This document shows, piece by piece, positions 11,101-39,034 of a DNA stretch of 39,044 bases. Location of the stretch: positions 1-39,044 of the IMG/VR virus record IMGVR_UViG_3300021335_000036. One strand, given 5' to 3'. The stretch comes from a virus. The stretch's first letter is position 1. Each line of letters starts with the position of its first letter. A program made the position numbers and the translations under genes. The notes beneath the pieces were generated by a model. That model had not been told where the DNA came from. It did no database searches and saw only the letters and a list, made by a program, of their open reading frames with translations.

Positions 11101-14100
11101 TCTATCTACAAGAAGAACTATTAAAGAAACTTTTGTAAACTTTAATAATCTATCAGAAGAAAGAGGAATTGGATCTGTTTCTGTTGATAACCAAAGTAAT
11201 GCAGAGACTTATGCTACTGAGGTGATTCTTTCTGCTTCTTTTGATGGAGAATATGATGAGAATACTGGAAAAGTTGTAGGAACAAAAACTTTCACTCTAT
11301 TAGATAAAAAGACAAACTCAGCACTTACTCCTTATAATGAAGAACAACTACTCATAACGATTGATGGAGTAGTTCAGGAACCAGGGGTTGCTTATACGAT
11401 TGCGGGAAGTTCAATTACATTTGCAAGTGCTCCACTTGGAGAAAGAATTTCAGAAGGTCAAAATGTACCATCTCAATCTTTCTATGGAAGATCATTTAAG
11501 TATAAATCCAACACCTTAAATGCGGAATACTTAAAGAAAGTAAGAAACTTCTTCCAGAGAAGTGGTAGATGGTTAGACTCGGCAAATCAGATTAGATTCA
11601 ACAAAGATTTTATTGTTGAAGAATCAATTGGATATGTTGTTGATAAGTATCCGAATCTTCCATGGAATTTATACAGATCCAAGTGTGCAAGAGATATTCG
11701 TTATATCTTGGATGCATATGAGCACGACTTGAGATTTGGCGGAAATCAAAAGTCAATTGGATCAGCAGAACTTTATTATAGTGGAAACACTTTACAGCAT
11801 ATTGACAATGAACTAACAGAAACACTGGCAGCGTTTAAGTATGCTGCAAAACTTTCTGCCGCAGCAATGAGAAATTGGGATTATACTATTACCAATGCAA
11901 TAATTTCTACTGGAGATAATCTAATTATTGTTCCATCAACATTTGGAATTGTTGTTGGAATGAATGTAAGCAGTGGTTCTCAATTCCCCGAAGGAACAGT
12001 TGTAACTGAAATTGTTAATGATACTCAAGTTAGAGTTTCCACTAATGCAAGAGATATTGTCACAGCATCATTAAATGTTCCTTCTGGACAAACTGAAATC
12101 ATCACTGTTGATTCTACATATGCAGGTGTTATTAGTGGCGGTACTATTGAGGTTGATGTAATCTCGGGAGGAATAGTAACCTTAACATCAACTTATGCAG
12201 TTAATAATATTCCACAAGTTACATTCTCTCTAAGCAAGATTAACAATGGTACTTTCTATGATGCATCAAACTTAATTGAGAGGAACAAATTATACATTCA
12301 AGAAGAAACTCTTGGATGGATTAAAGCACAATATCCATCGTTAGTAATTCCCGATGAAACAAAGTGCAAGAGAGATACTGGATATTTTGTTGATGCTATT
12401 GTATATTCATTGCGTTATGGTGGAACTGAAAAGATTATTAAATTTGCAAAAGCATACTACGATGGCAATATCTTAAAATACATCAATGATGAACTTACAG
12501 AATCTGTAGAAGCATTCCAGTATGCGATTGATTTGATGATTTTGGCAATGAGAAACATCTTGCCAGCAGGAACTTATACATCAGAAACACCATTTACAGA
12601 TTCTAATATTCTTGACGATCCAAATGAATATTTCCCTAAGTGTTATGAAGTAGAATCTGCATTGAATTCATATTCTGGAATCATTGAAAGACTACTACTG
12701 GAAGGAATTAATTTAATTCAAGCAGAACCAGAGAACAATCAAAGAAGAGGAAACTGGACTACATTAAGAACATATTCTAATTATAATTTGATACCAGATC
12801 CATTACTTCTTTCTTCTGAATGTGCAGATGTTGAATCTTCTATTCAATCCCTGTATGCTGGAATAGAGTCTACATTAACATCTGGAATCGGATCTGTTAC
12901 CAAAACAAATCCAGATTATATTGATGGTGAGAACACTGATTTTGAATTATTCTATGAAGATGGTTCTGATGTTAGAACCAACTCAACTGAAGATCTTTTA
13001 GTATTCATCAATGGTGTAATTCAACTACCTGGAACTTATGAAATCATAAGATCTGGAACTACTGATGTTGTTTCATTCTCGTCTCCTCCAAAGTGGGAAC
13101 AAGAGTCAAATGTAATAACAGTACAAGAACCACTTGCTTTAGATAAAACTTTTGTTGTTAGAGTTGGTAGTTATGAAACATTAACAATAAATGCCGATAG
13201 AATTTCAATAAAGAAAACAGGACCTTTCGTACTATTTGATAGAGAAACTGGAAACATAAGAGCAGTAGATGATTCTAACTATGCTTATGTTTTCATTGAT
13301 GGAGTATTACAAAAGAAGGATACTTCGTATACACTTAATGGATCAACAATAACTTTTAAAGAACCACTTACTTCTCATATTTTAATAGATGGATCAGAAG
13401 TAACTCAAAGAGTAGATATTCTTGTCGTTTATGGTAGAGATTTAGATAAGAAATTAACTTTCTATGATTATGAACCAGATACTTATTACAATAAGATTAA
13501 CTTGAGAATCACTGATAACACTATTTCAAAAACTTTGTTATCTAATATTGAATCTTGGTTCAGGGAGTCTAATTTTATTGATTCAAGAACTCCACTTTCT
13601 AAATCAAGACTTGGACTATTCTTGTTGGAAACAAATTCAATTACTGGTAAAACAAGCAAGATTGGAGAAATCAAGAGAATTACTAATTCAAACTCTGGAT
13701 ATTTTGATCTTGTATTATCTGGTGATAATGTTGTTGATCTTGATGAGAATGGAACTTATACATTCTGTTTAGGTGGATACATCAATGATCCTAATAAATT
13801 ATCATTCATTGCTTCTTCTGACATCATAGTTTCATTCTCTTATCTTGAAGATTCCGAAGGAAACAGAAATCTCATTAGAAATGTTACACCAAGATTCTAT
13901 GATACTGGCAAGTCAAATGAAATATGGGAAGCTCGTACTGAACTAACCGCAAATCTAAGAGTTGGTGATCAGATTAAGATTGATGGCGAATCAGATTTCA
14001 GAAATATTGTTTCTATTCCAGAATTAGTAAATCTTAAAGATTTCAGAAAAGGCGAAGAAGTATCTAATGAAATTTATGGCACGGTTGGTGCAACAAATTA

Positions 14101-15250
14101 CAATGGATTGACCAGAGGACTTGGACTTGGTGTTATTGCAGAAATAGACAATGGATCTGTTTCCAACTTAGTTTGGAATAAGAGAGATCTACAACTATTC
14201 ATTGATTATCAAATCAGAGATAAAGAAACTGCAATCGGTTATTATGCTGCTCCATTTGTTCAGTTTATTCCAGTAGATGGAAATGGTGGTGGAGCAAGTG
14301 CAGAAGTTCTTGTTGTCAACAAGAGCATTGTTGATATTGTTATTACAAATCCTGGGTCTGGATATACACAACCACCAAGAGTTGTTATTTCTCGTGGATA
14401 CACAACAGTAAAGAACAACAGAAAAGTTGATTATGTAACTAAACTTGACATTGTACCAAAACTTGAAGTAAAAGCAGTATCTGTAATCAGCAGTGTTTCT
14501 ATACTTGGCACTATTTCTCCATCAGTACTTACTTCTTTTGAAATATTAAATTCTCCTGTATCAGTTGAAAGATCTATTGTAGAGATAATTACACCAGAAG
14601 AAAAAAATATTAGTCTCTCTTCACAAAGAAAAATTGCTATTCTATCTACCATAAATGTTGCTGCAGAGGCATTCACATTATCTAAGGTAGAGACTTTAAG
14701 TACAACAATTGTTGAAAGTGAAGTCAAAGAAATAAAAGTTTCTCATACAAAGACTAATATCACTGATAAAGTCTTTACTGGAACAGTTGATAAAGTATAT
14801 TCTGGATATAACGATTCATTCTACTCTCAAAATATTTTAGGAAATAGATTGGTTTGTTTTGAATCTTCTAAGTTTATTGATACAGGATATTCCGATGTCT
14901 CAAGACTTACTATTGAAGAGTTTGGTTTGATATATTCGGAATGTACAATTGAAGATTTTGAAACTACAGATACAGTAAAAGTCACAACAACTATTGATAA
15001 CAAGTTTAATCTTGGATATCCATCAATCCAAAATTACGGAGCACTACTTGATATCTCCATTAATGAAACTGACGATATAATTTACATTTCTGACACATCA
15101 GTATTCCCAAATGAAGGATTGTTATTAATTGGAGACGAAATTGTATCTTACACATCAAAGTTCAGTGATCGTTTCTTAGGAGTTACAAGAGGAGTTTCTG
15201 GTACAGTGGCACAGTCACATACTGCTGGAGATTATCTCAGAACTTTTTAA
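5132..15250 (+). CDS. 7: Giant gp7-like baseplate wedge protein (3372 aa)
   Basis: Position between gp6 and gp8 equals T4 gene 7, and landmarks of the T4 gp7 carboxy-terminal part can be read: a helical region with FARFLEKYYEQIES (about 27-40), KRTLIKNITDFYKVKGTETS with FVFNSI (about 187-212), a G-E-I-T-D-L-I-G strand, then far downstream the S-Y-x-V-K-S-K-x-P-x-x-x-W-R and HPAGF block (about 1925-1955). T4 gp7 has 1032 residues; here about 1700 lie between these blocks and 1400 more follow. The insertions include a YHYH-type domain (about 750-870), G-x-G-Y beta repeats, four S/F-P...RGVSG modules, a duplicated helical domain (about 2149-2248 and 2374-2475) and three I-D-G-V-x-Q modules. T4 gp7 is the wedge scaffold that binds gp8, gp10 and gp53. 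The reading frame is intact over 10 kb. Homology is judged from memory of T4 gp7. Confidence 0.85.
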   Translation: MVVKKRQISYLIEDQLPSFISTEYPQFARFLEKYYEQIESQGQPLDVINNIEKYKDIDFYEENLLNQSSSFNGIITPSDTTITLIDGSSFPEKNGYIKIDDEICFYKSRNGNVLSEVSRGVSGNTTLGNLYESTEFVTTQAASHQSGTLVYNISNLFLYAFIKNFEYENLASFPEAYLKREIDKRTLIKNITDFYKVKGTETSIKFVFNSIIARDIENVPTTYNPKDYTLKASTSDWTTTYSLKVKLVSGEITDLIGNQIVQNDGLGNFASAIVDNVRPAGGIDGEQMYEVILNPATVNGKFKSASRTKLEKNISSSAVKGDRVTVESTLGWSNAGSFYVNNEKFTFVEKNVKQFYIDSRSSSSSHSAGETIYDYVPVKYGTVELMTFGVLYNLRNQTALPYSEVGDSIQISGPGFETKDRVIYDFSDDTVRWFVNELNTAPTALTNSNLQSQLQKYIADVSAIYEDDQFYYICSSGYPSYDILTAGVSASLVDPKNLKIIRKVPIQTTEVYETSQKDVGVFVDGSLAFSYKDDEFVKYGEIVKTSITQKGSGYKNAPYVLIDNVAGKATAVRSGETIESIVVDDNTIYTQDPEITITSGRNAEIRAVVTNGEVTSLVITNPGEYYSTPPTLVITDRSGKGRFASYQAVVSESGQIVDYVQVDKGKLYAQATTEVSIIPQGSGAAATAQIRRWVKNRYKKFESSLDGANGYIFDDLFTSNGKRYGIVANPLKLRYKVGDNLNSLLQEPSTKTHSKILGYAYDGNPIYGPFGYSDPGDSTSAISRITSGYNLKTSRADGPSTITYPLGTFIDDYQWTQSKDTGRTKLDKNNGRYCTTPEYPEGTYAYFISTDSSNNPTFPYLLGENFYSLPVSSNYDSLLSQNEVPRSSRRLNYSDYTANGYNSSALIKSITKGTVSGALVESSPSIFSVGNQVIIDQNSTTSGSGAAASVKEVYGKDVDAIEALQTRVVKVTTSEPVYFFDGDTVTQEITGATGTVYGNSFNTTEFVLRSVSGTFDTNNQINSNRTIQTLILDKQGDFSAGSTISLFDGVDSIIATAQVLETINNQNSLKISVLTGTFIVDDEYSIVSNNLTDTPGTKILSILDLSKDIDVFSLKTNVALVRTDGEHLLGVNDKVNITIDPDDSITETTYYVRKKKYQTVNLLTPGYFSTVQDTGIGRIDTLVAGSNYASTTYGGGTFTDVEVLFSNQNNARNAIGQTVGNTSDAVIGIEDAANNAKATVTVGYTKTVSASNSAINTITVNDISNIFVGLSVKGQNIANNTVVSSVNVDTKVITLTNSGTNNIITGSVTSVVFNPGVISSVIITDKGQGYRRGDGLTFKDEDLDKVSSATERSYIAIVDHVGFSSTDSSLFLTNVRGLSNDDLLQVGSEVVKIISVDSTLNKVIVERAQNNTNAIDHYNSTQVGFVNPKYRFTVGSQLGSGNAGDPYVESYDEKTQTLVVSYAYGVSNPNIINLSTSFEDVSTPTKRVNITNLIDVNNRFQYSKDNTNFDILNGLELQRNYSYKFDTSHSSMTDTFFDLSYSINKNIFALDTFRSNVAPGTTGSYFKVKPGANYGFFFGSTFSNNNVISGQSLVTEKEESEFIRYYFFDRNGDVETFNNYFSLINDPLQGEKTVVFTTATGFLYEYTVTPQYDGSGTIEYTTTNNSAIGKIKSIKIDNVGSDYNSIPSVIGVIPNKSLESMIDVNYDSINNRIGSITLSSSGDNYVNPRAVVIGNGTEAKIDLVVRDGKIVSAVLKNKGKGYTEKPTVKVVETSAKLYLTSLDIGIPESIKVENSGFLYTNDNTLSRQFFSNTILILSDFVDNAFAFGEEVVLENNGTVYATAKVSKNGWKNGSNILKVRNVTGQFLKGLTLRGKARGNTATVVDVLTSVFNPNIKTYYDNIGFYTSDRGKLSANSQRITDSYFYQDYSYVVKSKTPINVWRNLIKETTHPAGFKLFGEVIVESSGQSTVASSSSKNFTIINLEPKSVSNLSTRRTIKETFVNFNNLSEERGIGSVSVDNQSNAETYATEVILSASFDGEYDENTGKVVGTKTFTLLDKKTNSALTPYNEEQLLITIDGVVQEPGVAYTIAGSSITFASAPLGERISEGQNVPSQSFYGRSFKYKSNTLNAEYLKKVRNFFQRSGRWLDSANQIRFNKDFIVEESIGYVVDKYPNLPWNLYRSKCARDIRYILDAYEHDLRFGGNQKSIGSAELYYSGNTLQHIDNELTETLAAFKYAAKLSAAAMRNWDYTITNAIISTGDNLIIVPSTFGIVVGMNVSSGSQFPEGTVVTEIVNDTQVRVSTNARDIVTASLNVPSGQTEIITVDSTYAGVISGGTIEVDVISGGIVTLTSTYAVNNIPQVTFSLSKINNGTFYDASNLIERNKLYIQEETLGWIKAQYPSLVIPDETKCKRDTGYFVDAIVYSLRYGGTEKIIKFAKAYYDGNILKYINDELTESVEAFQYAIDLMILAMRNILPAGTYTSETPFTDSNILDDPNEYFPKCYEVESALNSYSGIIERLLLEGINLIQAEPENNQRRGNWTTLRTYSNYNLIPDPLLLSSECADVESSIQSLYAGIESTLTSGIGSVTKTNPDYIDGENTDFELFYEDGSDVRTNSTEDLLVFINGVIQLPGTYEIIRSGTTDVVSFSSPPKWEQESNVITVQEPLALDKTFVVRVGSYETLTINADRISIKKTGPFVLFDRETGNIRAVDDSNYAYVFIDGVLQKKDTSYTLNGSTITFKEPLTSHILIDGSEVTQRVDILVVYGRDLDKKLTFYDYEPDTYYNKINLRITDNTISKTLLSNIESWFRESNFIDSRTPLSKSRLGLFLLETNSITGKTSKIGEIKRITNSNSGYFDLVLSGDNVVDLDENGTYTFCLGGYINDPNKLSFIASSDIIVSFSYLEDSEGNRNLIRNVTPRFYDTGKSNEIWEARTELTANLRVGDQIKIDGESDFRNIVSIPELVNLKDFRKGEEVSNEIYGTVGATNYNGLTRGLGLGVIAEIDNGSVSNLVWNKRDLQLFIDYQIRDKETAIGYYAAPFVQFIPVDGNGGGASAEVLVVNKSIVDIVITNPGSGYTQPPRVVISRGYTTVKNNRKVDYVTKLDIVPKLEVKAVSVISSVSILGTISPSVLTSFEILNSPVSVERSIVEIITPEEKNISLSSQRKIAILSTINVAAEAFTLSKVETLSTTIVESEVKEIKVSHTKTNITDKVFTGTVDKVYSGYNDSFYSQNILGNRLVCFESSKFIDTGYSDVSRLTIEEFGLIYSECTIEDFETTDTVKVTTTIDNKFNLGYPSIQNYGALLDISINETDDIIYISDTSVFPNEGLLLIGDEIVSYTSKFSDRFLGVTRGVSGTVAQSHTAGDYLRTF
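11565..12560 (+). repeat. Duplicated helical domain inside the gp7-like protein
   Basis: Two copies of about 100 residues (11565-11875 and 12255-12555) share the order: x-x-N-K-x-F/Y-I-x-E-E-x-x-G-W/Y, Y-P-x-L, K-C-x-R-D, Y-x-x-D-A, L-R-F/Y-G-G, A-x-x-Y-Y-x-G-N-x-L-x-Y/H-I, E-L-T-E, A-F-x-Y-A, A-M-R-N. A beta-rich linker separates them. This is an internal duplication at protein level; the DNA has diverged. Confidence 0.85.
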
Positions 15251-25560: not shown

Positions 25561-27172
25561 CCCAGTAAATAAAACGGATACGTTTGAAATACAAAGACAA
25601 AAAATTAATTTTAATGGAGACGTATTGCAACTTTTAATTCCAGATCCACCAGATAATATTGATGGAGTTTCTCTTGCTTTATCTGGTGTTTCTTCTGGAA
25701 GATTGTGTGCTGGATTTACTCCAATAAATAATTCTACTGGTGTTATGACTCCTGTTGCTGGAGATGAGTATAATAGAAATACAGACAATACAATTACAAC
25801 TGATTATTTAACAGAATATGGTCCTGGTGGTGGTGAGTTTGATGTTACTGTTTATCCAGATAATCAAGAAATAGTTGCAATTTTGAACGGTTCTTCAATA
25901 GGGTCACATACATTTACTACTGGTGATGATTCTGGAACATATGGAAATTTGCAAATAGCGAATAATGTAGATTCGTATTATTCATCAAGAAATCCTGGAA
26001 TACCTTTGGATTTTTATCAAATTTTTGATACTAGAATTAATAATGTCTCTTGTCCAAATGGATTTAATTATGTTCAAATTACACAAGGTTCTTTTGAAAC
26101 AACAAAACCATATTGGTATGAAGATCCAAGCATAGTAGGAAGTCCAGTCATAACATTTGGTAGTGTTAGTGTACCAAATTCTGGAACACATGATGTTTCA
26201 TATTCTTCTGGCGTTCCTCATTATAAAAACAACTCATCAAATACATTTTCTTATAATTTAAATTTAGAAAATGCTACTGGTGATATGTATATACAGAATC
26301 AAGTTATTAGTGGAGGATCACAAACAACTGGATTTACTGCTGGAGGAACTAAAAATTACACGGATTTTGTTGGTGGATCAAATCCTCCAGTAAGAAATTT
26401 TGGGGTCGGAACTCCAGTAAGCACTACTATTACACACCAACCAAGAGATATACATTCCACAATATCCTCAACCCATTTTTCTACATTTACAGCAACAACA
26501 AGTTACGGTACAGATTCAAATAAAAGAGTTAATTTTGTGGGTAATGTAAATATTATGGGAACAACTTCAAAGACTAATGTTATTGATGAAGATAATATTT
26601 TAATTTCTAATTTAGGAATTGGTAGTGGAAACGCAATTCGTGTTAATTCAGGAAGTTCTGGAGATACTCCAACACCAGTTTTTACTTCTTGGAATCCTGC
26701 CATTAATGTAAGTTCTTACGAAGCAGTTGTTCGTGGTGGTGTGCTAAGGCACGATCAAACAAATTATTCTTCTGGGTATTATCCAGTTGGTCCAAACTAT
26801 TCTTCTGGAAGAAGTGGATCACAATATTTTCAAATAGAATTAATTAGATCTAATGTTTCATTATTTAACATTAGTGTTACTGGATCATATTCTGGTTGTT
26901 GGGTTTGTATGCCAGATAATTCTGTTTGGACATCAGGATTATCTAACACAAATGGTTGGGCAGATATGTTTCAAGAATATTCTGGTTCTGGTGTTCCCAA
27001 TAACGCAAATCCAGGTTGTGCGTCTGGCGGTTCTATGAATGGTTCTACTGGAACATTTAAATGTGTTTTTGGCACACAGTCCTCTTCTAATGATGCAAAT
27101 AATAGAATCTTAATCAGGTGGAAATTGGATTCTGGTCAATCAATAACCTCAATGTCATTTTTGGCAACTTAA
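25547..27172 (+). CDS. Fibre-like structural protein with Cys-containing tip domain (541 aa)
   Basis: The amino terminus reads MSIINPVNKTDTFEIQRQKI, a probable attachment segment shared by phage fibre proteins. The body is Ser, Thr, Gly and Asn-rich and beta-predicted throughout (GPGGGEFDVTV, NNVDSYYSS). The carboxy-terminal 160 residues (about 385-541) form a separate domain with YEAVVRGGVLRHDQTNYSSG, GCWVCMPDNSVWTSGLSN, NPGCASGGSMNG and FKCVFG; it carries most of the cysteines and looks like a receptor-binding tip. No enzymatic motif is seen. It overlaps the small coiled-coil gene by 14 bases and is followed by AAGGAGG for the next gene. Confidence 0.75.
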   Translation: MSIINPVNKTDTFEIQRQKINFNGDVLQLLIPDPPDNIDGVSLALSGVSSGRLCAGFTPINNSTGVMTPVAGDEYNRNTDNTITTDYLTEYGPGGGEFDVTVYPDNQEIVAILNGSSIGSHTFTTGDDSGTYGNLQIANNVDSYYSSRNPGIPLDFYQIFDTRINNVSCPNGFNYVQITQGSFETTKPYWYEDPSIVGSPVITFGSVSVPNSGTHDVSYSSGVPHYKNNSSNTFSYNLNLENATGDMYIQNQVISGGSQTTGFTAGGTKNYTDFVGGSNPPVRNFGVGTPVSTTITHQPRDIHSTISSTHFSTFTATTSYGTDSNKRVNFVGNVNIMGTTSKTNVIDEDNILISNLGIGSGNAIRVNSGSSGDTPTPVFTSWNPAINVSSYEAVVRGGVLRHDQTNYSSGYYPVGPNYSSGRSGSQYFQIELIRSNVSLFNISVTGSYSGCWVCMPDNSVWTSGLSNTNGWADMFQEYSGSGVPNNANPGCASGGSMNGSTGTFKCVFGTQSSSNDANNRILIRWKLDSGQSITSMSFLAT

Positions 27173-29698: not shown

Positions 29699-31069
29699 AT
29701 GGCAGTAGCAACAAAAAGAGACTTTGTAATTAACTATGGTCTCCAAACAGATAGAACTGGCACATCTACAGGAAATACTCTTTTTGTAGATCAAGTTAAT
29801 GATAAAGTTGGCATAGGTCAGGGATCTCCTGCATATACTTTAGATGTTAGTGGAGACATTAACTTCACTGGAACTCTGTATAAAAATGGAGCAGAACATG
29901 TTGCTTCACGATGGACTCTAACTGGTTCAGATATCTACAGACTTTCTAAAGTTGGGATTGGTACAACGAGCCCTGCTCGCCCACTACATATATCCAATGG
30001 GGGAGCAGAAGGTATTGAATTTGGGCCTGGAGAGTCTGGTAATGTTAACCTAAGTCTTCATTTTAATAGAAGTTCAAGTGTTTATGTAGGCAATGAAACT
30101 CGTGCTTCATATCATTCATTTTTTATTGGTAGTAGCGAAAAAGCACGAATCCACAGCTCTGGCAATGTTGGTATTGCCGATACAAATCCAGATCAAAAAT
30201 TAGTTGTTGCTGGAAACATTAGAACAACTGGAGCATTATATGGTCCATCAAACTTTATTATTGATCCTTCAACAGTAGGTGATGATACTGGTACTGTAGA
30301 AATTAAAGGTAATCTTGTAGTTCAGGGCACTACAACAACTATCAATTCTACTACATTAGATTTAGATCATCTTTCTTTGGGTGATAACGAAGTTGCTAAC
30401 TTTGGTAATAGTAATGACTTACAGATTTATCATGATGGTCCAACAAATAGAACCATCATAGACGATTCAAGTGGTGGATTTAAAGTTCAAAGTGATGGAA
30501 ATATTTCCTTCACAAAAGGAGCAACGGAAAATCTTGCTGTATTTGAAGTTGATGGAGCAGTAAAACTTTATTATGATAATAATATAAGATTTGAAACAAC
30601 CACAGATGGTGCTGATATTAGTGGAACTGGATCACTAAAAGTTCCTGTTGGAACAACAGCAGAAAGAAGTGATTCTCCAGTTGCTGGAGATATCAGATTC
30701 AATAGTGAATTAGTAACTTATGAAGGTTATAACGGAAATGAATGGGGCGGACTTGGTGGTGCCGCAGAAAAAGACACTACTGTTGCAACAACTGCTGCTA
30801 CAACTTGTGAACAATTTGATATTACTACTCATAGATCAGCAACTATTACAACTCAAATTACACAAGGAACTGACTATCAGATCGGTAGATATTTGGTAAT
30901 TCATGATGGAACTACTGCAAGTATAATTGAACAAGCTGCTGTTGCTACTGGTGATATGTTAGGTTCATTTAGTGTAACTATTAGTGGTGGTAATTTATTA
31001 TTTCAAGTTAATATGAATAACTCAAGTTCGGCAACCGTAACTTCATTAATGACAAAAATTTCAGTATAA
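29699..31069 (+). CDS. Tail fibre-like protein with VGIGT repeats (456 aa)
   Basis: The product begins RDFVINYGLQTDRTG and has three copies of the K-V-G-I-G-x-x-S/N-P-x-x-x-L-x-V/I motif (about 38-50, 87-100, 157-172), each followed by a G-x-I/R strand; such repeats are common in trimeric phage fibres. Further segments are LDHLSLGDNEVANFGNSNDL, QIYHDGPTNRTIIDDSSGGF and a S-P-V-A-G-D-I-R-F-N-S-E-L...Y-E-G-Y-N-G-N-E-W module (about 325-348) that recurs in the propeller genes downstream. The last 97 residues are a diverged copy of the shared carboxy-terminal domain (YLVIHDGTTASIIEQ). It bridges the two fibre families in the window. Confidence 0.8.
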   Translation: MAVATKRDFVINYGLQTDRTGTSTGNTLFVDQVNDKVGIGQGSPAYTLDVSGDINFTGTLYKNGAEHVASRWTLTGSDIYRLSKVGIGTTSPARPLHISNGGAEGIEFGPGESGNVNLSLHFNRSSSVYVGNETRASYHSFFIGSSEKARIHSSGNVGIADTNPDQKLVVAGNIRTTGALYGPSNFIIDPSTVGDDTGTVEIKGNLVVQGTTTTINSTTLDLDHLSLGDNEVANFGNSNDLQIYHDGPTNRTIIDDSSGGFKVQSDGNISFTKGATENLAVFEVDGAVKLYYDNNIRFETTTDGADISGTGSLKVPVGTTAERSDSPVAGDIRFNSELVTYEGYNGNEWGGLGGAAEKDTTVATTAATTCEQFDITTHRSATITTQITQGTDYQIGRYLVIHDGTTASIIEQAAVATGDMLGSFSVTISGGNLLFQVNMNNSSSATVTSLMTKISV

Positions 31070-31080
31070 GGTGAAAAATA

Positions 31081-32475
31081 ATGACTAGTACTCGTATTGG
31101 GTTTGCAGAGGATTTCTCCCTAAAAAATCAACTAGTCGGTATTGGCACAAATCAACAAGAAGTAAAATTAAGAGTCGTCGGAACTATAAAGGGAGACTTC
31201 AATGTAAAGGATGAAACCACCCTGTCAGTTTATAGTGGTTTTATTGTACAAAATTATAATATTAATGTTCCCTCTGTACTAAGTTATACTTCCGATAATG
31301 TAGGAACATTCACAAGAGTAAACGAAAGAGAAACAGATTACTTAAAGTTAGAGGGAGAATATAATACACTATCCGAAGACATCATAGTAGATGAGGATAG
31401 AATATTTGAAGTTTCAGATGATTCCTTAGTTAGTGTTGGAACATTAGAAAGTGTAAGTATTCAATCACACTTTAGTGTTCCTGATGGTGGAACAAATGAA
31501 AGACCAGACCAACCAGTAGAAGGAATGGTAAGATTTAATGATGACCTGAATACACTTGAGTTTTATAATGGAATTGAGTGGAGACAATTTACAGTCTCTG
31601 GTGCAAGTGGTCGTGGTGTTTTTGGTTCCAATGGAACTTATGGTTATGTGAATATTCATACTCTTGGTAATGCAGAATATTTTGGAGATGCAGTTTCTGC
31701 TGGTGCTGAAATTAGAGCAGCATTTGGTTCATCAACTCGTGGAATTTGGGGCGGCGGATATAGTGTAACTGGAATTGAATATGTGACGCTTGCATCTGCA
31801 GGAAATGCAATTGAATTTGGAAATCTTACTGGAAATTATTTTAGAAATACTGGTGGATGTTCAAGTTCAACAAGAGGTTTATTTTATGGTGGTGGTCTTC
31901 CTGCATATTATAATGTTATTGAATATGTTGAAATAAATACACTCGGCAATTCACTTGATTTTGGAGACCAAACTAATTCTAGTGCAGTAAAAACTTGTTT
32001 TTCTTCTCCAACTCGTGGATTTTCTATCGGTGGATATAACGGAACTTTTGGTGCTGGTTTAATATCAACAATTGATGTTGTTACTATTTCTTCTAAAGGT
32101 GATGCAATTGAATTTGGTGATGTTACCGAAAGAAGAATAGGAATGTTTGGATTATCAAATAGTGTTAGAGGTGTTTTTGGTGGAGGATATAATACACCTA
32201 ATTTTAATAGTATTAATAGTGAATATGTAACAATGTCTTCAAATGGAAATGGAATTGACTTTGGAGATTTGACTCAAGGAAGAACATATCCTGGAGGAAC
32301 AGCATCTCAAACAAGAGGTATAATATTTGGTGGGGTAAATCCAACAAATGTAAATACAATAGATTATATAAACATATCATCCACAGGAAATGCACAAGAC
32401 TTCGGGGACCATATAGAGTCTCAAACAAGAATGAGAGGAACATCAGACTCTCACGGTGGTTTAGGAGGTTTCTAA
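31081..32475 (+). CDS. Six-repeat propeller-like adhesin, paralogue 1 (464 aa)
   Basis: The amino terminus (RIGFAEDFSLKNQLVGIGTN) is a paralogue of those of the next two genes. A linker with VPDGGTNERPDQPVEGMVRF and LEFYNGIEWRQF (about 138-168) precedes the repeats. Residues 177-464 hold six copies of a 45-50 residue unit: (T/V)RG-hydrophobic-x-G-G, an I-E/D-Y-V-T-I strand, GNAIEFG, then GGCSSS. The end is SDSHGGLGGF. I infer a six-bladed propeller on a trimeric stalk, probably for binding the host surface. It is the most diverged copy: unit 1 has FGSNGTYG instead of FGGG. Confidence 0.8.
   Translation: MTSTRIGFAEDFSLKNQLVGIGTNQQEVKLRVVGTIKGDFNVKDETTLSVYSGFIVQNYNINVPSVLSYTSDNVGTFTRVNERETDYLKLEGEYNTLSEDIIVDEDRIFEVSDDSLVSVGTLESVSIQSHFSVPDGGTNERPDQPVEGMVRFNDDLNTLEFYNGIEWRQFTVSGASGRGVFGSNGTYGYVNIHTLGNAEYFGDAVSAGAEIRAAFGSSTRGIWGGGYSVTGIEYVTLASAGNAIEFGNLTGNYFRNTGGCSSSTRGLFYGGGLPAYYNVIEYVEINTLGNSLDFGDQTNSSAVKTCFSSPTRGFSIGGYNGTFGAGLISTIDVVTISSKGDAIEFGDVTERRIGMFGLSNSVRGVFGGGYNTPNFNSINSEYVTMSSNGNGIDFGDLTQGRTYPGGTASQTRGIIFGGVNPTNVNTIDYINISSTGNAQDFGDHIESQTRMRGTSDSHGGLGGF
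31609..32475 (+). repeat. Six-unit protein repeat array, paralogue 1
   Basis: Six units start at GRGVFGSN, TRGIWGGG, TRGLFYGG, TRGFSIGG, VRGVFGGG and TRGIIFGG. Each carries an Y-V/I-x-I strand, a G-(N/D)-A-like turn and an F-G-D/N-hydrophobic motif. DNA similarity between units is low, so the array is old or under diversification. Confidence 0.9.
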
Positions 32476-32476
32476 A

Positions 32477-33835
32477 ATGGCAACTAATCGTTTCGGTCAT
32501 TCTGACGACTTTGTATTAAAGAATAAAAAAGTTGGTATCAATACTTCAGAACCACAAGAAGAGTTAGAAGTTGTTGGTGATATAAAATCACATAACTTAA
32601 GAGTTACTGGAGATTCTTCTCTAACAACTTTTGAAGGATTTTTAAGTTCAAATCAAAATGTTGATGAGACTTTAAATGTATCTACTTCTACCAGTTCGTC
32701 TTTATCTGACGAAATTATTATTGGTGATGGTGTAACTGCAACTATAGAAGATGGAGTAACAAGTTCTCAAGGTAATATTGATAGTCTGAAAGTCTTCAAT
32801 ACTTTCACTATCCCAACTGGTGGAACAGAAGATAGACCAAGTAAGGTAAAACCAGGACAATTATATTATAATGTAGACTTTAAGACTATTGAGTTCTGGG
32901 ATGGTAATGTATGGAGACAGGTTGATAATACGACACAGAGAGGAAGGGGTGTTTTTGGTGGAGGAACTATAGATACTCCCACTCCAGGAGAATCGAGGAG
33001 AATGGATTATATCAATATAATGACCCTTGGAAACTCTATAAGTTTTGGAGATTTAACAGGAACTGCGAGAAGACAAAGTACTGGATGTTCCTCATCAACT
33101 CGTGGTCTTTTTATGGGAGGTCAAGGACCTGGACCAAACATAAGTGATATTGATTATATAACAATTGCAAGTGAAGGAAATTCGCAAGATTTTGGCAATT
33201 TGCAATCATCAAAACAAACTGCTGGAGGATTATCAAGTTCTACTAGGGGTATTAGTTATGGACATGGTGATGTTGCTAGCAATCAAATTGATTATGTAGA
33301 AATAGCAACACTGGGAAATGCGTTAGATTTTGGCGATGCAAAAACTGCAAGAAGAGATTGTGGAACATTTGCATCTTCAACCAGAGGAATTAATGGCGGT
33401 GGTATTAGTGACCCAGCAGTTTTGAGTGAGATTGAATTTATTACTATTGCATCACAAGGAAATGGAATATCATTTGGCGATTTAACCAAAAGTAGAAGAA
33501 GTTTAGGAGGATGCTCCAATTCAACTCGTGGAGTATTTTTTGGTGGTGGTCCAACAAGAGTTAATACTATTGATTATATAACTATCGCAAGCACAGGTAA
33601 TGCAATTTATTTTGGTGATTTGACTAGTAATCGTGGTGGAGGAAATAGTGGTTCTACATCAACACAGATAAGAGGAATATTTGCAGGAGGCGATACTCCA
33701 ACATATTCCAATATCATAGATTACATTACAATAACTACAACAGGGAATGCACAAGATTTTGGAGATTTATCTGCAAATTATTGGATTCAATCTGGTAGTT
33801 TATCAGACTCTCACGGTGGTCTTGGTGGTTTCTAA
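32477..33835 (+). CDS. Six-repeat propeller-like adhesin, paralogue 2 (452 aa)
   Basis: It starts two bases after the preceding stop and opens RFGHSDDFVLKNKKVGINTS, the paralogous stalk start, followed by PQEELEVVGDIKSHNLRVTG. The linker has IPTGGTEDRPSKVKPGQLYY and IEFWDGNVWRQV (about 115-152). Residues 156-452 contain six repeat units, the best conserved being TRGVFFGGGPTRVNTIDYIT followed by IASTGNAIYFGDL. The end is again SDSHGGLGGF. Translation is likely coupled to the gene upstream through the shared junction. Function as an alternative receptor-binding protein is inferred from repeat structure and position. Confidence 0.82.
   Translation: MATNRFGHSDDFVLKNKKVGINTSEPQEELEVVGDIKSHNLRVTGDSSLTTFEGFLSSNQNVDETLNVSTSTSSSLSDEIIIGDGVTATIEDGVTSSQGNIDSLKVFNTFTIPTGGTEDRPSKVKPGQLYYNVDFKTIEFWDGNVWRQVDNTTQRGRGVFGGGTIDTPTPGESRRMDYINIMTLGNSISFGDLTGTARRQSTGCSSSTRGLFMGGQGPGPNISDIDYITIASEGNSQDFGNLQSSKQTAGGLSSSTRGISYGHGDVASNQIDYVEIATLGNALDFGDAKTARRDCGTFASSTRGINGGGISDPAVLSEIEFITIASQGNGISFGDLTKSRRSLGGCSNSTRGVFFGGGPTRVNTIDYITIASTGNAIYFGDLTSNRGGGNSGSTSTQIRGIFAGGDTPTYSNIIDYITITTTGNAQDFGDLSANYWIQSGSLSDSHGGLGGF
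32942..33835 (+). repeat. Six-unit protein repeat array, paralogue 2
   Basis: Units start at GRGVFGGG, TRGLFMGG, TRGISYGH, TRGINGGG, TRGVFFGG and IRGIFAGG. Five of six keep a D/E-Y/F-I/V-x-I strand and F-G-D/N. Unit lengths are 46-52 residues. Confidence 0.9.
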
Positions 33836-33843
33836 TGATCATA

Positions 33844-33851
33844 GATAAATA
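33844..33851 (+). promoter_or_regulatory. T4-type late promoter before paralogue 3 (GATAAATA)
   Basis: GATAAATA lies in the 33-base spacer, 17 bases before the ATG at 33869 and shortly after the stop at 33835. It separates paralogues 1-2 from 3-4 in transcription. Confidence 0.7.
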
Positions 33852-33868
33852 CTTAAAAGCATCGTAAA

Positions 33869-35245
33869 ATGCCAAAGATTAGAATTAATTTTCCAGATGA
33901 ATTAAGTTTAAAAAACGAACAGGTTGGAATCGGGACAAATGATCCAACTGCTCGTCTGGATGTTCGTGGCAATATTTTAGCTGATAATTCTGTTGGTGGT
34001 GATAACATTTCAACTATCACAAGATATGATGGTTTTCTAAATGAGACACAGACTCTATATCATAACTTATCAGTATCACAAGATTCAAAAGGCAATCTAA
34101 ATTCTTTATCAGGTGAGATTGTAATTAATGGAGAAGTTACAGTTTCTGATGATACTCCACTCACAGGAGGACGATTAGATAGTCTGACTGTGACTGGTAA
34201 GTTTGATTTACCACACGGTGGCTCAGAAGATAGAGAAGATACACCAGAGAAAGGAAGCACAAGATTTAACCAGGATTTAGGACAACTTGAGTTTTATACT
34301 GGTTATGAATGGAGAACTGTGAATTCTTATGCTGATGGGGGTGGTAGGGGGAGAGGTGTTTTTGGTGGTGGTAGTGTTCCTGGTAATACTTCTGTTATTG
34401 ATTTTATCAATATTCAAAATTTAGGAAATGCAGTTAATTTTGGAAATTTAACAGTAGCAAGAAGAGGAATCGGTGGTTGTTCTTCATCAATAAGAGGTCT
34501 TTTTGGTGGTGGGGATGACCCAACAGGAAATACAATTGACTATATTACTATTGCTGCTGAGGGCAATGCTATAGACTTTGGCGATTTAACTCATTCTGAT
34601 GTTCACGTAGGGTCTCTTTCATCTTCCACGAGAGGGATATGGGCAGGGGGAGTGGGACCTGCTAATGTAGATATAATTGATTATGTTGAAATTTCAACTC
34701 TTGGTAATGCATTAGATTTTGGAAATCTGATGGAACCAAATCACGCACCATCAGGCGTTTCAAATGGAGTAAGGGGTGTTTTTTGTGGTGGTAATACTGC
34801 TCAACCATTCCACGCTTCTGGAACTACCGATAGAATGCAATTTATAACCATATCATCCACAGGTGATACTGTTGATTTTGGAAACTTGACTCAATTTAGA
34901 GGATATATAAATGCATCTTCAAATTCAGTTAGAGGAATCTGCGCTAATGGATACACAACACCAACTTTTTCAAGAACAATTGATTATTTAACTATTGCAA
35001 CAACAGGAAATGCTATTGATTTTGGAGAAACTAGTCAATACTCTTACGGAACACAAGGTTGTGCAACGCAGACAAGGGCAATAGTTGCAGTTGGATCACA
35101 AATAGCACCAACTACAAGAATTAATGTTATCGAATATGTTGAAATTGCAACAACTGGTAATTCTGTTGACTTTGGAGATTTAACATTAGCAAGATCTGTT
35201 CTTGGTGCATTATCAGACTCTCACGGTGGACTAGGAGGTTTCTAA
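33869..35245 (+). CDS. Six-repeat propeller-like adhesin, paralogue 3 (458 aa)
   Basis: The amino terminus RINFPDELSLKNEQVGIGTN and PTARLDVRGNILADN repeats the stalk start of paralogues 1 and 2. LTGGRLDSLTVTGKFDLPHG, a R-F-N-Q-D-L-G-Q-L-E-F-Y strand and GYEWRTV follow (about 105-153), then a Gly/Arg-rich hinge (DGGGRGRG). Residues 161-458 contain six units, and the end is SDSHGGLGGF. It has its own late promoter, so its dose may be independent of paralogues 1 and 2. Unit 4 carries an insertion (AQPFHASGTTDRMQF), a place where a surface loop may be lengthened. Confidence 0.82.
   Translation: MPKIRINFPDELSLKNEQVGIGTNDPTARLDVRGNILADNSVGGDNISTITRYDGFLNETQTLYHNLSVSQDSKGNLNSLSGEIVINGEVTVSDDTPLTGGRLDSLTVTGKFDLPHGGSEDREDTPEKGSTRFNQDLGQLEFYTGYEWRTVNSYADGGGRGRGVFGGGSVPGNTSVIDFINIQNLGNAVNFGNLTVARRGIGGCSSSIRGLFGGGDDPTGNTIDYITIAAEGNAIDFGDLTHSDVHVGSLSSSTRGIWAGGVGPANVDIIDYVEISTLGNALDFGNLMEPNHAPSGVSNGVRGVFCGGNTAQPFHASGTTDRMQFITISSTGDTVDFGNLTQFRGYINASSNSVRGICANGYTTPTFSRTIDYLTIATTGNAIDFGETSQYSYGTQGCATQTRAIVAVGSQIAPTTRINVIEYVEIATTGNSVDFGDLTLARSVLGALSDSHGGLGGF
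34349..35245 (+). repeat. Six-unit protein repeat array, paralogue 3
   Basis: Units start at GRGVFGGG, IRGLFGGG, TRGIWAGG, VRGVFCGG, VRGICANG and TRAIVAVG. The last two have lost the G-G pair, suggesting that only the strand pattern, not the glycines, is strictly needed. Confidence 0.9.
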
Positions 35246-35246
35246 T

Positions 35247-38003
35247 ATGGCAAACTTAAGAGCAAACAGAATTACAAGCACAGAAGTCTTTGAGACCACT
35301 GGGTCCGTTCAGTTTGATGGTAGTGGTGATTATTTGAGTCTTGCAAGTAACAGTGACTTTCAATTCGGAAGTAATGATTATACAATTGAATCGTGGATAT
35401 ATTTGAAGAGTTTATCATCAATTCCAGCATTATTCGGCAGATATAATACTTCATCGGCAAGAGAACTTTATGTTGTAATTGGAAATGATGGATCAATTGC
35501 ACATAGAACTTCACCAGATGGAATAAATTATACTACTCATCAAACTTTACCTGGACTTATCACTACAAATAAGTGGATACATATAGCAATCTCAAAATCT
35601 GGTATCAATTCTTATATATCAGTAGATGGTACAGTTTATACTGGAACAGTAAATTCAACACTGCATACTTCAAGTCAAACAACATATGTTGGTAGTGTTT
35701 TACCTGGAACATTAGATAATTATTTTAATGGTCACATTTCCAACTTACGAGTCCTAAAAGGTCAAGCACTCTACACAGAAAACTTCACACCACCTACAAG
35801 AGAACTGGAAGTCATACCAAACACGGTTCTTTTAGCGTGTCAGTCAACAACCAAAGCAGACGAAGAGAAGACTGGCAAGACTATCACAGTCAATGGAAAT
35901 GCAGTTGCAAATGAACTCACTCCTGGTCTTCTTATAAATGTTGTGAAGTCTGGTGGAAGCAGTGCGATTACTGGGTCTGTTGAGTTTGATGGGACTGGGG
36001 ATTATTTGAATATTCCAGACAATGAAGGTTTTAATATGGGAACTGGAGATTTTACTCTTGAGTGTTGGGTAAATTCTTCTGACAATAGCGATTATCAAGG
36101 AATTTTTGGATCATATGACTATGATAGTGCGATGGTATTGTTTCAAATATCAAATACTGGAGTTCTACGTTTCGTAAATCCAGGTGCTATTGACATAACA
36201 GGAACAACTAATTTACGAGATGGTGGATGGCATCATATTGTAATGTGTAGAAGTGGTTCTACTTTAAGAGGATTTGTTGATGGTATACAAGAAATATCAA
36301 CAACTTATAGTTCTTCTATTGATTGGGGACATAACAATAATTCAATTGTCATTGGTATTGTAGATAGAACAGATTATCCTGGACAGTACGAATATAAAGG
36401 TTTCATCTCCAACCTCCGTATCATCAAAGGTACTGCACTCTACACATCAAACTTCATACCACCCACAAGAAATCTCACAAAACTTCCAGGCACTGTTCTC
36501 TTATGTTGCCAGGATTCTAATGACCCAACAACAGAAGCAACTGGTAAGACTATTACGGGTTATGGAGATTTACAAAAAGCAGATGGTGTTGAGTTAGTTA
36601 CAAATGGAACTTTTGATACTGATGTAAGTGGATGGACTACATACGAATCCACAAATACTTGGTCTTCTGGTAAGATGCAGATTACTAGAACTGGTGGTGG
36701 TGGTAGGTCAACATATCAAACATTTACGACAGTGCCTGGATATGTTTATACTATCAATTCTGAAGTAAATTCTGTTGGAAGTAGAGGAGATATTTATATA
36801 ATGTATGGAACTGGGTGGACTAATATAGACAACCCGCTTTTATATCTAGCAGGAACTAGTGGACAAACACGCATACTATCTGGACATTTTACTGCTACTA
36901 CTACCACAACAACTTTGGCGTTTGCTGTAGATGCTAATGGAACTTCAATTATTGTTGATAATGTCTCAGTAACCAAATTAGATCCAGGAAACAGAGCATC
37001 AGACTTCACACCATCAGTAGGTAGTGATGATTCAGTAGAATTTGCAGGACCAACAACGATAAACACAGAAAATTATTTCTATCTTCCAACAGGACCAACG
37101 GAACAAAGAGCACCAGTTGGAAATTATAATGCAGGAACTCGTGGGGTATTTGGTGGAGGAAGAGCACCTGGAGAAGTTAATGTTATTGATTATATTACAA
37201 TATCCTCTACAGGTGATGCACAAGACTTTGGAGATTTGACTACAGAAAGAACGGATGCATCTTCATTTTCATCAGCAACTAGAGGGGTCTATGCGGGTGG
37301 ATATGGAACCCCAACACTTAGAAATATAATTGATTATGTGACTATAAGTTCTACTGGAAATGCGGTTGATTTTGGTGATACTACCCAACCAGAGGGATTT
37401 TCTGGGACAGGATGTTCTAATGGGACTCGGGGGGTATGGGCAGCAGGGTCTAATCCAGTAATATCAAATATTTTAGAATATGTAACAATTGCATCAACTG
37501 GAAGTGCTCAAGACTTTGGAGATTTACGTGGAGGTCTTTCTGAAGGTGCTGCTTGTTCTTCACCTACAAGAGGAGTATTCTTTAGTGGTAATGGAAATGG
37601 AAATGCAATCAATTATATAACTATTGCATCAACTGGAAATGCACAAGACTTTGGAGATTGTATTAGAAATCAAAGTCGTGGTAGAGGAGGATCTTCAAAT
37701 ACAATTAAAGGAGTTTTTGGCGGTGGTTACGATCAACCATCAACTTCAGGAAATGTAATAGAGTATATAAATATCGCTACCATAGGCAATTCTATTGATT
37801 TTGGTGATTTATCTTACTCATCAAGACTATTAGGATCTGCTGCAAATTCAACCAGAGCAGTATTTAGTGGAGGTGTGGGTACATTTAATAATATTGAGTA
37901 TGTTACTATTCCAACAAACTCCAATTCCATAGACTTTGGCAATTTGACTATAGGAAGACACGCAGCAAATGGTCTTTCTAATGGTCACGGCGGCCTCGGA
38001 TAA
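35247..38003 (+). CDS. LamG-LamG-CBM-like-propeller adhesin, paralogue 4 (918 aa)
   Basis: This mosaic protein opens MANLRANRITSTEVFETTGS. Two LamG/concanavalin-like domains follow (about 19-225 and 235-445); each begins G-S-V-x-F-D-G-(S/T)-G-D-Y-L, has W-I/V and W-H/I-H-I strands, then N-G/K-x-I-S-N-L-R-x-x-K-G-x-A-L-Y-T-x-N-F-x-P-P-T-R. A CBM4/9-like domain (ELVTNGTFDTDVSGWTTYES to IIVDNVSVTKLD, about 448-578) is next, then a short linker with FYLPTGPTEQRAP, and six propeller units (631-918) ending SNGHGGLG. LamG and CBM folds bind glycans, so it likely recognises host polysaccharide. The R-F-N...E-W module of the other paralogues is missing here. It starts two bases after the previous stop. 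Confidence 0.85.
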   Translation: MANLRANRITSTEVFETTGSVQFDGSGDYLSLASNSDFQFGSNDYTIESWIYLKSLSSIPALFGRYNTSSARELYVVIGNDGSIAHRTSPDGINYTTHQTLPGLITTNKWIHIAISKSGINSYISVDGTVYTGTVNSTLHTSSQTTYVGSVLPGTLDNYFNGHISNLRVLKGQALYTENFTPPTRELEVIPNTVLLACQSTTKADEEKTGKTITVNGNAVANELTPGLLINVVKSGGSSAITGSVEFDGTGDYLNIPDNEGFNMGTGDFTLECWVNSSDNSDYQGIFGSYDYDSAMVLFQISNTGVLRFVNPGAIDITGTTNLRDGGWHHIVMCRSGSTLRGFVDGIQEISTTYSSSIDWGHNNNSIVIGIVDRTDYPGQYEYKGFISNLRIIKGTALYTSNFIPPTRNLTKLPGTVLLCCQDSNDPTTEATGKTITGYGDLQKADGVELVTNGTFDTDVSGWTTYESTNTWSSGKMQITRTGGGGRSTYQTFTTVPGYVYTINSEVNSVGSRGDIYIMYGTGWTNIDNPLLYLAGTSGQTRILSGHFTATTTTTTLAFAVDANGTSIIVDNVSVTKLDPGNRASDFTPSVGSDDSVEFAGPTTINTENYFYLPTGPTEQRAPVGNYNAGTRGVFGGGRAPGEVNVIDYITISSTGDAQDFGDLTTERTDASSFSSATRGVYAGGYGTPTLRNIIDYVTISSTGNAVDFGDTTQPEGFSGTGCSNGTRGVWAAGSNPVISNILEYVTIASTGSAQDFGDLRGGLSEGAACSSPTRGVFFSGNGNGNAINYITIASTGNAQDFGDCIRNQSRGRGGSSNTIKGVFGGGYDQPSTSGNVIEYINIATIGNSIDFGDLSYSSRLLGSAANSTRAVFSGGVGTFNNIEYVTIPTNSNSIDFGNLTIGRHAANGLSNGHGGLG
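35290..36530 (+). repeat. Tandem LamG-like domain duplication
   Basis: Two adjacent copies of about 200 codons share both protein and DNA likeness, strongest at the ends: ACTGGGTC-GTT-AGTTTGATGG at the start of each and the TCTACACA..AACTTCA.ACCACC region before the domain ends. The DNA likeness implies a more recent duplication than the propeller units. Confidence 0.8.
37137..38003 (+). repeat. Six-unit protein repeat array, paralogue 4
   Basis: Units start at TRGVFGGG, TRGVYAGG, TRGVWAAG, TRGVFFSG, IKGVFGGG and TRAVFSGG. Units 1-4 are closest to the family consensus (YITISSTGDAQDFGDLT). The array ends HGGLG directly at the stop. Confidence 0.9.
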
Positions 38004-38006
38004 ATA
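37999..38006 (+). promoter_or_regulatory. T4-type late promoter overlapping a stop codon (GATAAATA)
   Basis: GATAAATA begins in the last Gly codon of paralogue 4 and includes its TAA stop (38001-38003). It lies 20 bases before the ATG at 38027, where AAAGGA also gives a ribosome binding site. Confidence 0.7.
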
Positions 38007-38026
38007 CTTAAAGGACATATAAGACT

Positions 38027-39034
38027 ATGAGTTTACCTCCATCCGAAATACCATTAGGTGCAATGAGATTCAACTCTGACTCACAGAAGTTGGAGTATTG
38101 GGATGGTTCGCAGTGGGTTCAGGTTCATACATTCTCACCAAACCTGAATGGTGGTGCTCGTGGTGTTTTTGTAGGCGGAAGGCAAGAATATAGTCCACAA
38201 CTTTATATTAATACCATAGAATATATTACAATTTCTTCAACTGGTGATGTAACAGATTTTGGAGATTTGAGTGCTGCAAAAGGTGATGGTGCATCTTGCT
38301 CTTCAGCAACTCGTGGTTTGTTTACAGGTGGACAAACAGCAACAAATACAATTGAATATTTTACAATTTCTTCTACTGGAGATTCTAAAGATTTTGGAGA
38401 CTTAAATCAACCAAATAATAATCAATTGGGAGCACTTGCTGGTGCAACAAGAGGAATTTTTATGGGGGGTAGGGATTCTCCAGCGGCAGCAAGAGTTAAT
38501 ATAATTGATTATGTAACTATAGCATCATTAGGAAATGCAAAAGACTTTGGAGATTTATCAAATCCAACTAATTTGTGTACAGGATGTGCATCTCCAACAA
38601 GAGGTGTGATAATGGGAGGACAAAATCCAGCATCTACAAATACTATAGAATTTATAACAATATCAACACTTGGAGATGCACAAGACTTTGGAGATTTAAC
38701 TGCTGCTAAATTTTCTTCTGGTGGGTGCTCTAATGCAACCAGAGGTCTTTATGGTGGTTCTAATCCAATAACAAATACAATTGAGTTTATTACAATAGCA
38801 ACAACAGGGAATGCACAAAACTTTGGTGATTTGATCAATTCAGTTTCATTAGCAGCAGCGTGTTCTTCATCAACTCGTGGGGTATGGGGAGGTGGATATG
38901 CATCACCAGTTGTTGAAGTTAATGTTATTCAATATGTCTCAATATCTACAGAAGGAAATGCGGTAGATTTTGGAGACTTAAGTAATGTTAGATATTTGGG
39001 TTCTGCCTGCTCCAACGCTCACGGAGGTCTATAA
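38027..39034 (+). CDS. Six-repeat propeller-like protein without stalk, paralogue 5 (335 aa)
   Basis: It lacks the stalk start seen in paralogues 1-3 and begins directly in the linker module: LPPSEIPLGAMRFNSDSQKL, EYWDGSQWVQV (about 3-35). Six units follow from residue 44 to the end (TRGLFTGG, TRGIFMGG, TRGVIMGG, TRGLYGGS, TRGVWGGG after the first ARGVFVGG), and the protein stops at SNAHGGL. With its own late promoter and no visible attachment segment it may bind to another fibre or be a released or exchangeable tip. The start at 38027 is the first ATG after the promoter, and no in-frame extension is open through the upstream stop region. Confidence 0.82.
   Translation: MSLPPSEIPLGAMRFNSDSQKLEYWDGSQWVQVHTFSPNLNGGARGVFVGGRQEYSPQLYINTIEYITISSTGDVTDFGDLSAAKGDGASCSSATRGLFTGGQTATNTIEYFTISSTGDSKDFGDLNQPNNNQLGALAGATRGIFMGGRDSPAAARVNIIDYVTIASLGNAKDFGDLSNPTNLCTGCASPTRGVIMGGQNPASTNTIEFITISTLGDAQDFGDLTAAKFSSGGCSNATRGLYGGSNPITNTIEFITIATTGNAQNFGDLINSVSLAAACSSSTRGVWGGGYASPVVEVNVIQYVSISTEGNAVDFGDLSNVRYLGSACSNAHGGL
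38156..39034 (+). repeat. Six-unit protein repeat array, paralogue 5
   Basis: Six units of 45-51 residues carry the consensus IEYITISSTGD, x-x-x-F-G-D-L and a Cys or Ala before the S-(S/N/P)-x-(T)-R-G start of the next unit. The final unit is followed only by HGGL. Confidence 0.9.

Follow-up and report, generated by a model that had tools for sequence, protein, structure and literature searches.

The window, that is, the whole stretch of 39,044 nucleotides that was analysed (positions 1 to 39,044 of the IMG/VR virus record IMGVR_UViG_3300021335_000036), ends in a bank of five consecutive fibre genes (A-E), each of which encodes six copies of a common repeat unit behind an N-terminal part of its own (Table 1). 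The source virus belongs to the marine, cyanobacterial T4-like group. The DNA outside the propeller heads is related to cyanomyoviruses, with S-SKS1 (host Synechococcus WH7803) as the nearest isolate, and the baseplate genes gp6 and gp8 are located upstream of the bank, inside the window. The motif RFN-D...GNEW is common to the fibre gene that precedes gene A and to the stems of genes A, B, C and E. Gene D matched the Pfam model Laminin_G_3 (6.4e-31) in two stretches, and another stretch of this protein, starting NGTFDTDVSGW, looks by eye like a carbohydrate-binding module. Promoter and terminator scans gave matches at chance level only. The contig ends 10 bases past gene E, so that the bank is cut off and only its start is shown. 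A gene for a 3372-aa protein (window 5132-15250) contains a YHYH domain (1.8e-27) within the first 1000 residues, after a weak baseplate wedge match.

Table 1. Fibre genes and their domains at the end of the window.
Feature	Position	Strand	Description
Fibre gene without propeller	29699..31069	+	Directly before gene A; PHROG 1325, 2803 and 25721 common to genes A-C
Fibre gene A	31081..32475	+	464 aa; attachment part at the N-terminus (1-176), six-bladed propeller (177-464)
Gene A propeller head	31609..32472	+	Residues 177-464; C-terminal closing strand TSDSHGGLGGF
Fibre gene B	32477..33835	+	452 aa; propeller, residues 156-452
Gene B propeller head	32942..33832	+	
Fibre gene C	33869..35245	+	458 aa; propeller, residues 161-458
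Gene C propeller head	34349..35242	+	
Fibre gene D	35247..38003	+	918 aa; two concanavalin A-like/laminin G domains and another beta-rich stretch before propeller 631-918
Gene D second concanavalin A-like/laminin G domain	35988..36428	+	Residues 248-394
Gene D propeller head	37137..38000	+	
Fibre gene E	38027..39034	+	335 aa; 43-residue attachment with motif RFNxDxxKLEYWDGxQW, and propeller 44-335
Gene E propeller head	38156..39031	+	Last strand, residues 326-329, closes blade 1

Repeat units and propeller fold

An earlier note on this DNA had counted six units in all five genes, starting at residues 177, 156, 161, 631 and 44, and both the number and the starts were confirmed exactly. When four of the proteins were used to build a profile and the fifth was searched with it, six units were found each time (5/5, all i-E <= 6.3e-8), and the 30 real units scored at least 35.8 bits, against 7.2 bits for the best chance match in 1000 shuffled copies. 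The unit is about 47 residues long, with a mean unit-unit identity of about 42% either within or between the five proteins, and a diverged seventh unit start, S(N/D)xHGGL(G), is present at the C-terminal end of all of them.

A tblastn search of the phage DNA collection with gene B gave no match, and S-SKS1 alone was near-significant with gene E; the relatives were therefore drawn from viral contigs, where the unit family has at least 258 matching stretches. With the exception of S-SKS1, the bank contigs are metagenomic assemblies. In a first survey of complete open reading frames in bank contigs, 99 had six units and 2 had twelve, and a second survey covering 78 further contigs revealed six units in 89 frames, twelve in 96 and eighteen in 3. 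The expectation that the number is fixed across diverged paralogues was thus borne out, with counts falling at 6, 12 and 18 among viral contigs, and in one twelve-unit protein that was read through, the closing motif lies between its two rings. Several apparent exceptions were examined. Five frames of the second survey read as eleven units, each with an over-long stretch between two units that was mostly about one unit long; seven units in G008 10730 resulted from one unit split in two by the profile; and the 9 and 3 units in L103 look like one twelve-unit gene split by a frameshift. Only the distant S-SKS1 relatives, whose partly truncated frames read as 8 or 9 units, fall outside the rule of six. 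An in-frame TAA interrupts one propeller gene (L020:6248-7210) after two units, with four more units following in the same frame (2+4=6).

The closed ring with six blades proposed in the earlier note is supported by this census and by AlphaFold2 models of genes E and A. The gene E model, which covers 38027-39031 and was obtained with an alignment of 37 relatives, has four strands per unit (pLDDT 92.5, pTM 0.84). In the gene A model (m579fd6de02bb) the propeller is mostly at pLDDT 75-90 and the N-terminus (1-130) mostly below 50. Foldseek comparison of gene E with solved structures placed kelch domains first (KLHL12 the best, E 6.5e-19; also Plasmodium kelch, KLHL17, Keap1 and the designed protein SAKe6). 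With VIA-align, gene E superposed on 7onc, a designed six-bladed kelch, with Z 38.4 and 1.9 A over 274 residues, and on Keap1 with Z about 37, collinear from end to end (Keap1 325-609); gene A, the most diverged paralogue, gave Z 36.1 and 1.9 A over 268 residues to 7onc. The Keap1 ring is closed by a C-terminal strand joined to the N-terminal strands in blade 1. In the gene E model the last strand, given by the terminal S(N/D)xHGGL segment, likewise completes blade 1 with the N-terminal strands, so that the ring is predicted to close as in kelch domains.

The same note had stated that the unit does not match kelch, which is wrong for the fold, since the best structural matches are kelch domains and an intermediate from S-SKS1 passes the Kelch_3 threshold. 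The kelch propellers Keap1, KLHL12, KLHL17 and SAKe6 share with the bank six four-stranded blades, a unit of about 47 residues, Gly-Gly in strand b and a collinear whole-ring alignment. The unit also follows the kelch order of basic residue, hydrophobics, Gly-Gly and aromatic pair, with GG in 82-88% of units and Y/F in 89%. However, the bank propellers are only 10-17% identical to these proteins and stay under every kelch Pfam cut-off; F replaces W (F in 96% of units where W is expected), the c-d turn is longer and the spacing exceeds that of the Kelch_1 pattern. No kelch model was matched in a Pfam search of the window proteins, Kelch_1 was found in 1 of the 37 relatives at E 0.12, and its best score in five bank contigs was 12.3 bits, under the cut-off of 20.1. 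No family for the unit was found among the Pfam and NCBIfam models tested, and a sequence search of solved structures gave no match for the unit proteins. A DUF7270 match (3e-10) was obtained with an artificial consensus of six identical units and was rejected because it was short and chance-like and no natural protein matched.

The link to kelch at the sequence level is provided by S-SKS1, whose repeat proteins are matched by the bank profile (E 5e-27), one of them reaching 34.5 bits with Kelch_3 (cut-off 22). These proteins (phrog_19111, e.g. SWZG_00001) have homologous units, lie beside a related sulfotransferase gene and have a predicted viral structural match, but they differ from the bank in the unit itself (SYGYFGGG...VDRIDFSNETTSAPGN), in the 8 or 9 units per open frame and in being annotated as hypothetical. 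Given the kelch-type fold and the S-SKS1 link to Kelch_3, the unit proteins are named here a divergent kelch-type propeller, although they have no Pfam kelch membership. The S-SKS1 bank itself (HQ633071.1 201813-208007 and 1-1226) consists of several truncated or overlapping frames (8, 9, 5 and 3 units), which may reflect sequencing frameshifts or a bank spanning the record ends. The same propeller family was found in a single-protein search in L043 and L044, contigs labelled Epulopiscium and Porticoccaceae, possibly as phage DNA inside those assemblies.

Constant N-termini and exchanged heads

Gene order and N-terminal types are conserved across the bank relatives, which carry up to 12 further propeller genes after the gene E equivalent. 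Three of them (G001, G002 and G004) hold 14 to 17 propeller genes arranged in two blocks with four genes between, one of these four encoding a sulfotransferase (PF13469, 5.9e-17). In L040:7520-10789 the four conserved inter-block genes encode proteins of 309 aa, 240 aa (phrog_1574) and about 270 aa and the sulfotransferase (PF13469), and a surface- or fibre-modifying role is possible for them. Slots 7 and 9 of the same contig (L040:17505-18668 and L040:19765-20787) have glycine-rich leaders (MGYGGGGSGGGG...) of variable length.

The N-terminal part and the propeller of each gene differ in their degree of conservation. Genes B and C are 69% and 76% identical in the N-terminus to their slot mates in G001, and 57% and 42% identical in the propeller. 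In a comparison of the sister phages G002 and G003, identity was 94-99% for the inter-block genes and 89-100% for the N-termini of nine slots in a row, but 43-57% for the heads of the same slots, compared to a mean of 47.6% for heads from different slots. At the DNA level, identity in this pair is mostly 90-100% up to the start of the propeller, where it drops to about 55%, and it goes back up at the stop codon in all nine slots. Over the six pairs formed by four sister phages, the N-termini average 83-94% and the same-slot heads 46.6-53.2%. Metagenomic chimeras in repeat-rich regions could have exaggerated the shuffling, but the sharp borders in nine consecutive slots and the consistent slot N-termini speak against their being the whole explanation.

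Heads were also found in different slots. The head in slot 8 of G002 is 88.8% identical over 884 nt to that in slot 5 of G003, and the heads of G003 slot 9 and L040 slot a are 87% identical. Relatives of the first of these heads were found behind a slot-8 N-terminus in the further contigs examined, namely L124 (a possible copy of the G002 phage), L126, L128, L129 and, in the next gene, L130. It is therefore probable that G003 acquired a slot-8-type head in slot 5. A concanavalin A/laminin G-like head takes the place behind a slot-type N-terminus in L041 slot 5 (L041:15315-16220; the Pfam search was run for L041 only), and similar heads with slot-type N-termini occur in G001 (25990-26868) and G008 (9795-10730, both in stitched bank coordinates).

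The phylogenetic trees of the two parts were compared. In the N-terminal tree the nine block-2 slots required 8 label changes, which is the minimum. The head tree, with weak support along its backbone (24 of 45 inner branches left open), showed no clustering of genome labels. A weak clustering of slots on this tree (0/200 shuffles as low) disappeared when labels were shuffled within junction classes, which are set by the residues that precede the propeller (PxGDTAYRGGRG, QTGG, GGTG or TPGA): slot labels then gave 30 changes against a shuffled mean of 30.7 (138/300 as low). Junction class itself was clustered: it required 11 changes, whereas shuffling gave a mean of 29 and no value under 24. 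Since slot changes are at the within-class chance level and junction class is clustered, heads appear to move freely among slots that belong to one junction class but seldom from one class to another. Such a pattern would be expected if heads recombined through the junction.

Variable face and proposed function

An analysis of 744 units from 124 propellers was carried out, with entropies averaged over alignment columns. Entropy was high for the b-c loop (mean 3.0 bits over columns 9-16) and the d-a region (3.6 bits over columns 36-41), which also contain essentially all insertions, and low for the a-b turn (1.1 bits over columns 45, 46 and 1) and the c-d turn (1.6 bits over columns 26-29). In propellers one face is formed by the b-c and d-a loops and the opposite face by the a-b and c-d turns. 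In the model the two chain ends exit from the conserved face, so that the variable face is predicted to point away from the stem. The nearly invariant residues (RG, GG, G-N and FG) are structural and all lie at repeat positions.

Phage fibres are known to combine N-terminal anchors with swapped C-terminal domains, and the proteins of the bank have the conserved N-terminal anchor and variable C-terminal recognition-type domain by which phage receptor-binding proteins are recognized. We consider it probable that the bank works as a rack in which the fibre attachments are constant and the heads, which would bind receptors and be assembled together, are exchangeable. That these are alternative receptor-binding heads carried together, as the earlier note had suggested, is supported indirectly by the constant attachments, the exchanged heads and the variability of one face. 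Each gene would yield a short fibre, with its slot-specific N-terminal part docking on the baseplate or fibre region and a six-bladed kelch-type propeller at the C-terminus, in which the SNxHGGL strand would complete blade 1, serving as its strand a beside strands b, c and d from the N-terminus. The b-c/d-a face, where nearly all the variation in sequence and length is concentrated, would most likely touch the host surface. With N-termini constant for each bank position, the heads would behave as cassettes recombining between phages and between positions with the same junction, probably by homologous recombination through the conserved flanks (the stem of the gene itself upstream and that of the next gene downstream). 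The phage would present, or quickly reassort, many receptor-binding heads, which may be present simultaneously in virions. A fuller model, for which the chances seem evenly balanced, is a combinatorial recognition array in which the docking parts are fixed at up to about 17 fibre positions in parallel, kelch-like and sometimes lectin heads are exchanged population-wide under junction-class rules, and virions display a reassorting panel of receptor-binding faces.

Enzymatic propellers have been considered as an alternative, with glycan-degrading or oxidising heads comparable to sialidases or galactose oxidase, whose exchange would swap substrate specificity. Enzymes are often carried on propellers, the cavity of one phage propeller has been likened to carbohydrate-degrading enzymes (PMC4901313), and a sulfotransferase gene lies inside the bank of the relatives. 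This possibility is nevertheless unlikely, because the best structural matches are peptide-binding kelch domains, the nearly invariant residues have a structural role with no unique catalytic set recurring across heads, and no enzyme family was matched in the Pfam and NCBIfam searches. Slightly less likely still is a mostly silent library in which few slots are expressed and the rest serve as recombination donors. The many paralogues and the movement of heads between slots are compatible with such a store, but almost all genes are intact and combine a conserved N-terminus specific to their slot with exactly six units, which fits products that are all made and docked; in addition, one broken copy (L020) was found among more than 100, and a pure donor store would need no slot-specific attachments. 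Fast divergence in place, by strong selection or a diversity-generating retroelement and without exchange, would account for same-slot heads that are often about 50% identical with no known near relative, but it is improbable in view of the sharp breaks in identity at domain borders, the near-identical heads in different slots and the loss of slot signal within junction classes; in addition, a screen of eight bank contigs, each of which is a fragment, gave no reverse transcriptase (RVT_1) or serine recombinase. An open beta solenoid with no ring, a question that tandem units alone leave undecided, has a negligible probability, since unit numbers quantised in sixes are not expected from it, the closing half unit ends rings and both models (genes E and A) are rings.

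The proposed exchangeable rack has partial counterparts in other phages. In the jumbo phage vB_PcaM_CBB, kelch-type six-bladed propeller proteins are clustered and one of them, CBB_552, is in the mature virion; there are three such genes and no rack, and the available part of that description mentions no pattern of constant slots and exchangeable heads (PMC5259590). Propellers are present in the recognition or baseplate proteins phi11 gp45 (five blades), PRD1 P2 and PhiKZ gp131 (seven blades) (PMC4901313), which differ from the bank in blade number and in being encoded by single genes. Klebsiella phage RaK2 has many tail fibre proteins, ten of them shown in the adsorption complex (PMC10253068), but its heads are largely depolymerases, whereas those of the bank are kelch-like propellers. 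Among the open-access papers searched, none was found that describes propeller heads in a many-slot rack with exchange limited by class.

In T4-like cyanophages wac, g10, g11, g12, g34, g35 and g37 are listed as missing (PMC2984593), and with no recognizable T4 fibre genes the recognition of the host is an open question in these phages. For one group of them, the bank offers a concrete candidate for the missing fibres, and its unit family falls outside the Pfam and NCBIfam models tested. With more than 100 heads of one fold, constant stems and one variable face, it also constitutes a natural data set on varied phage recognition.
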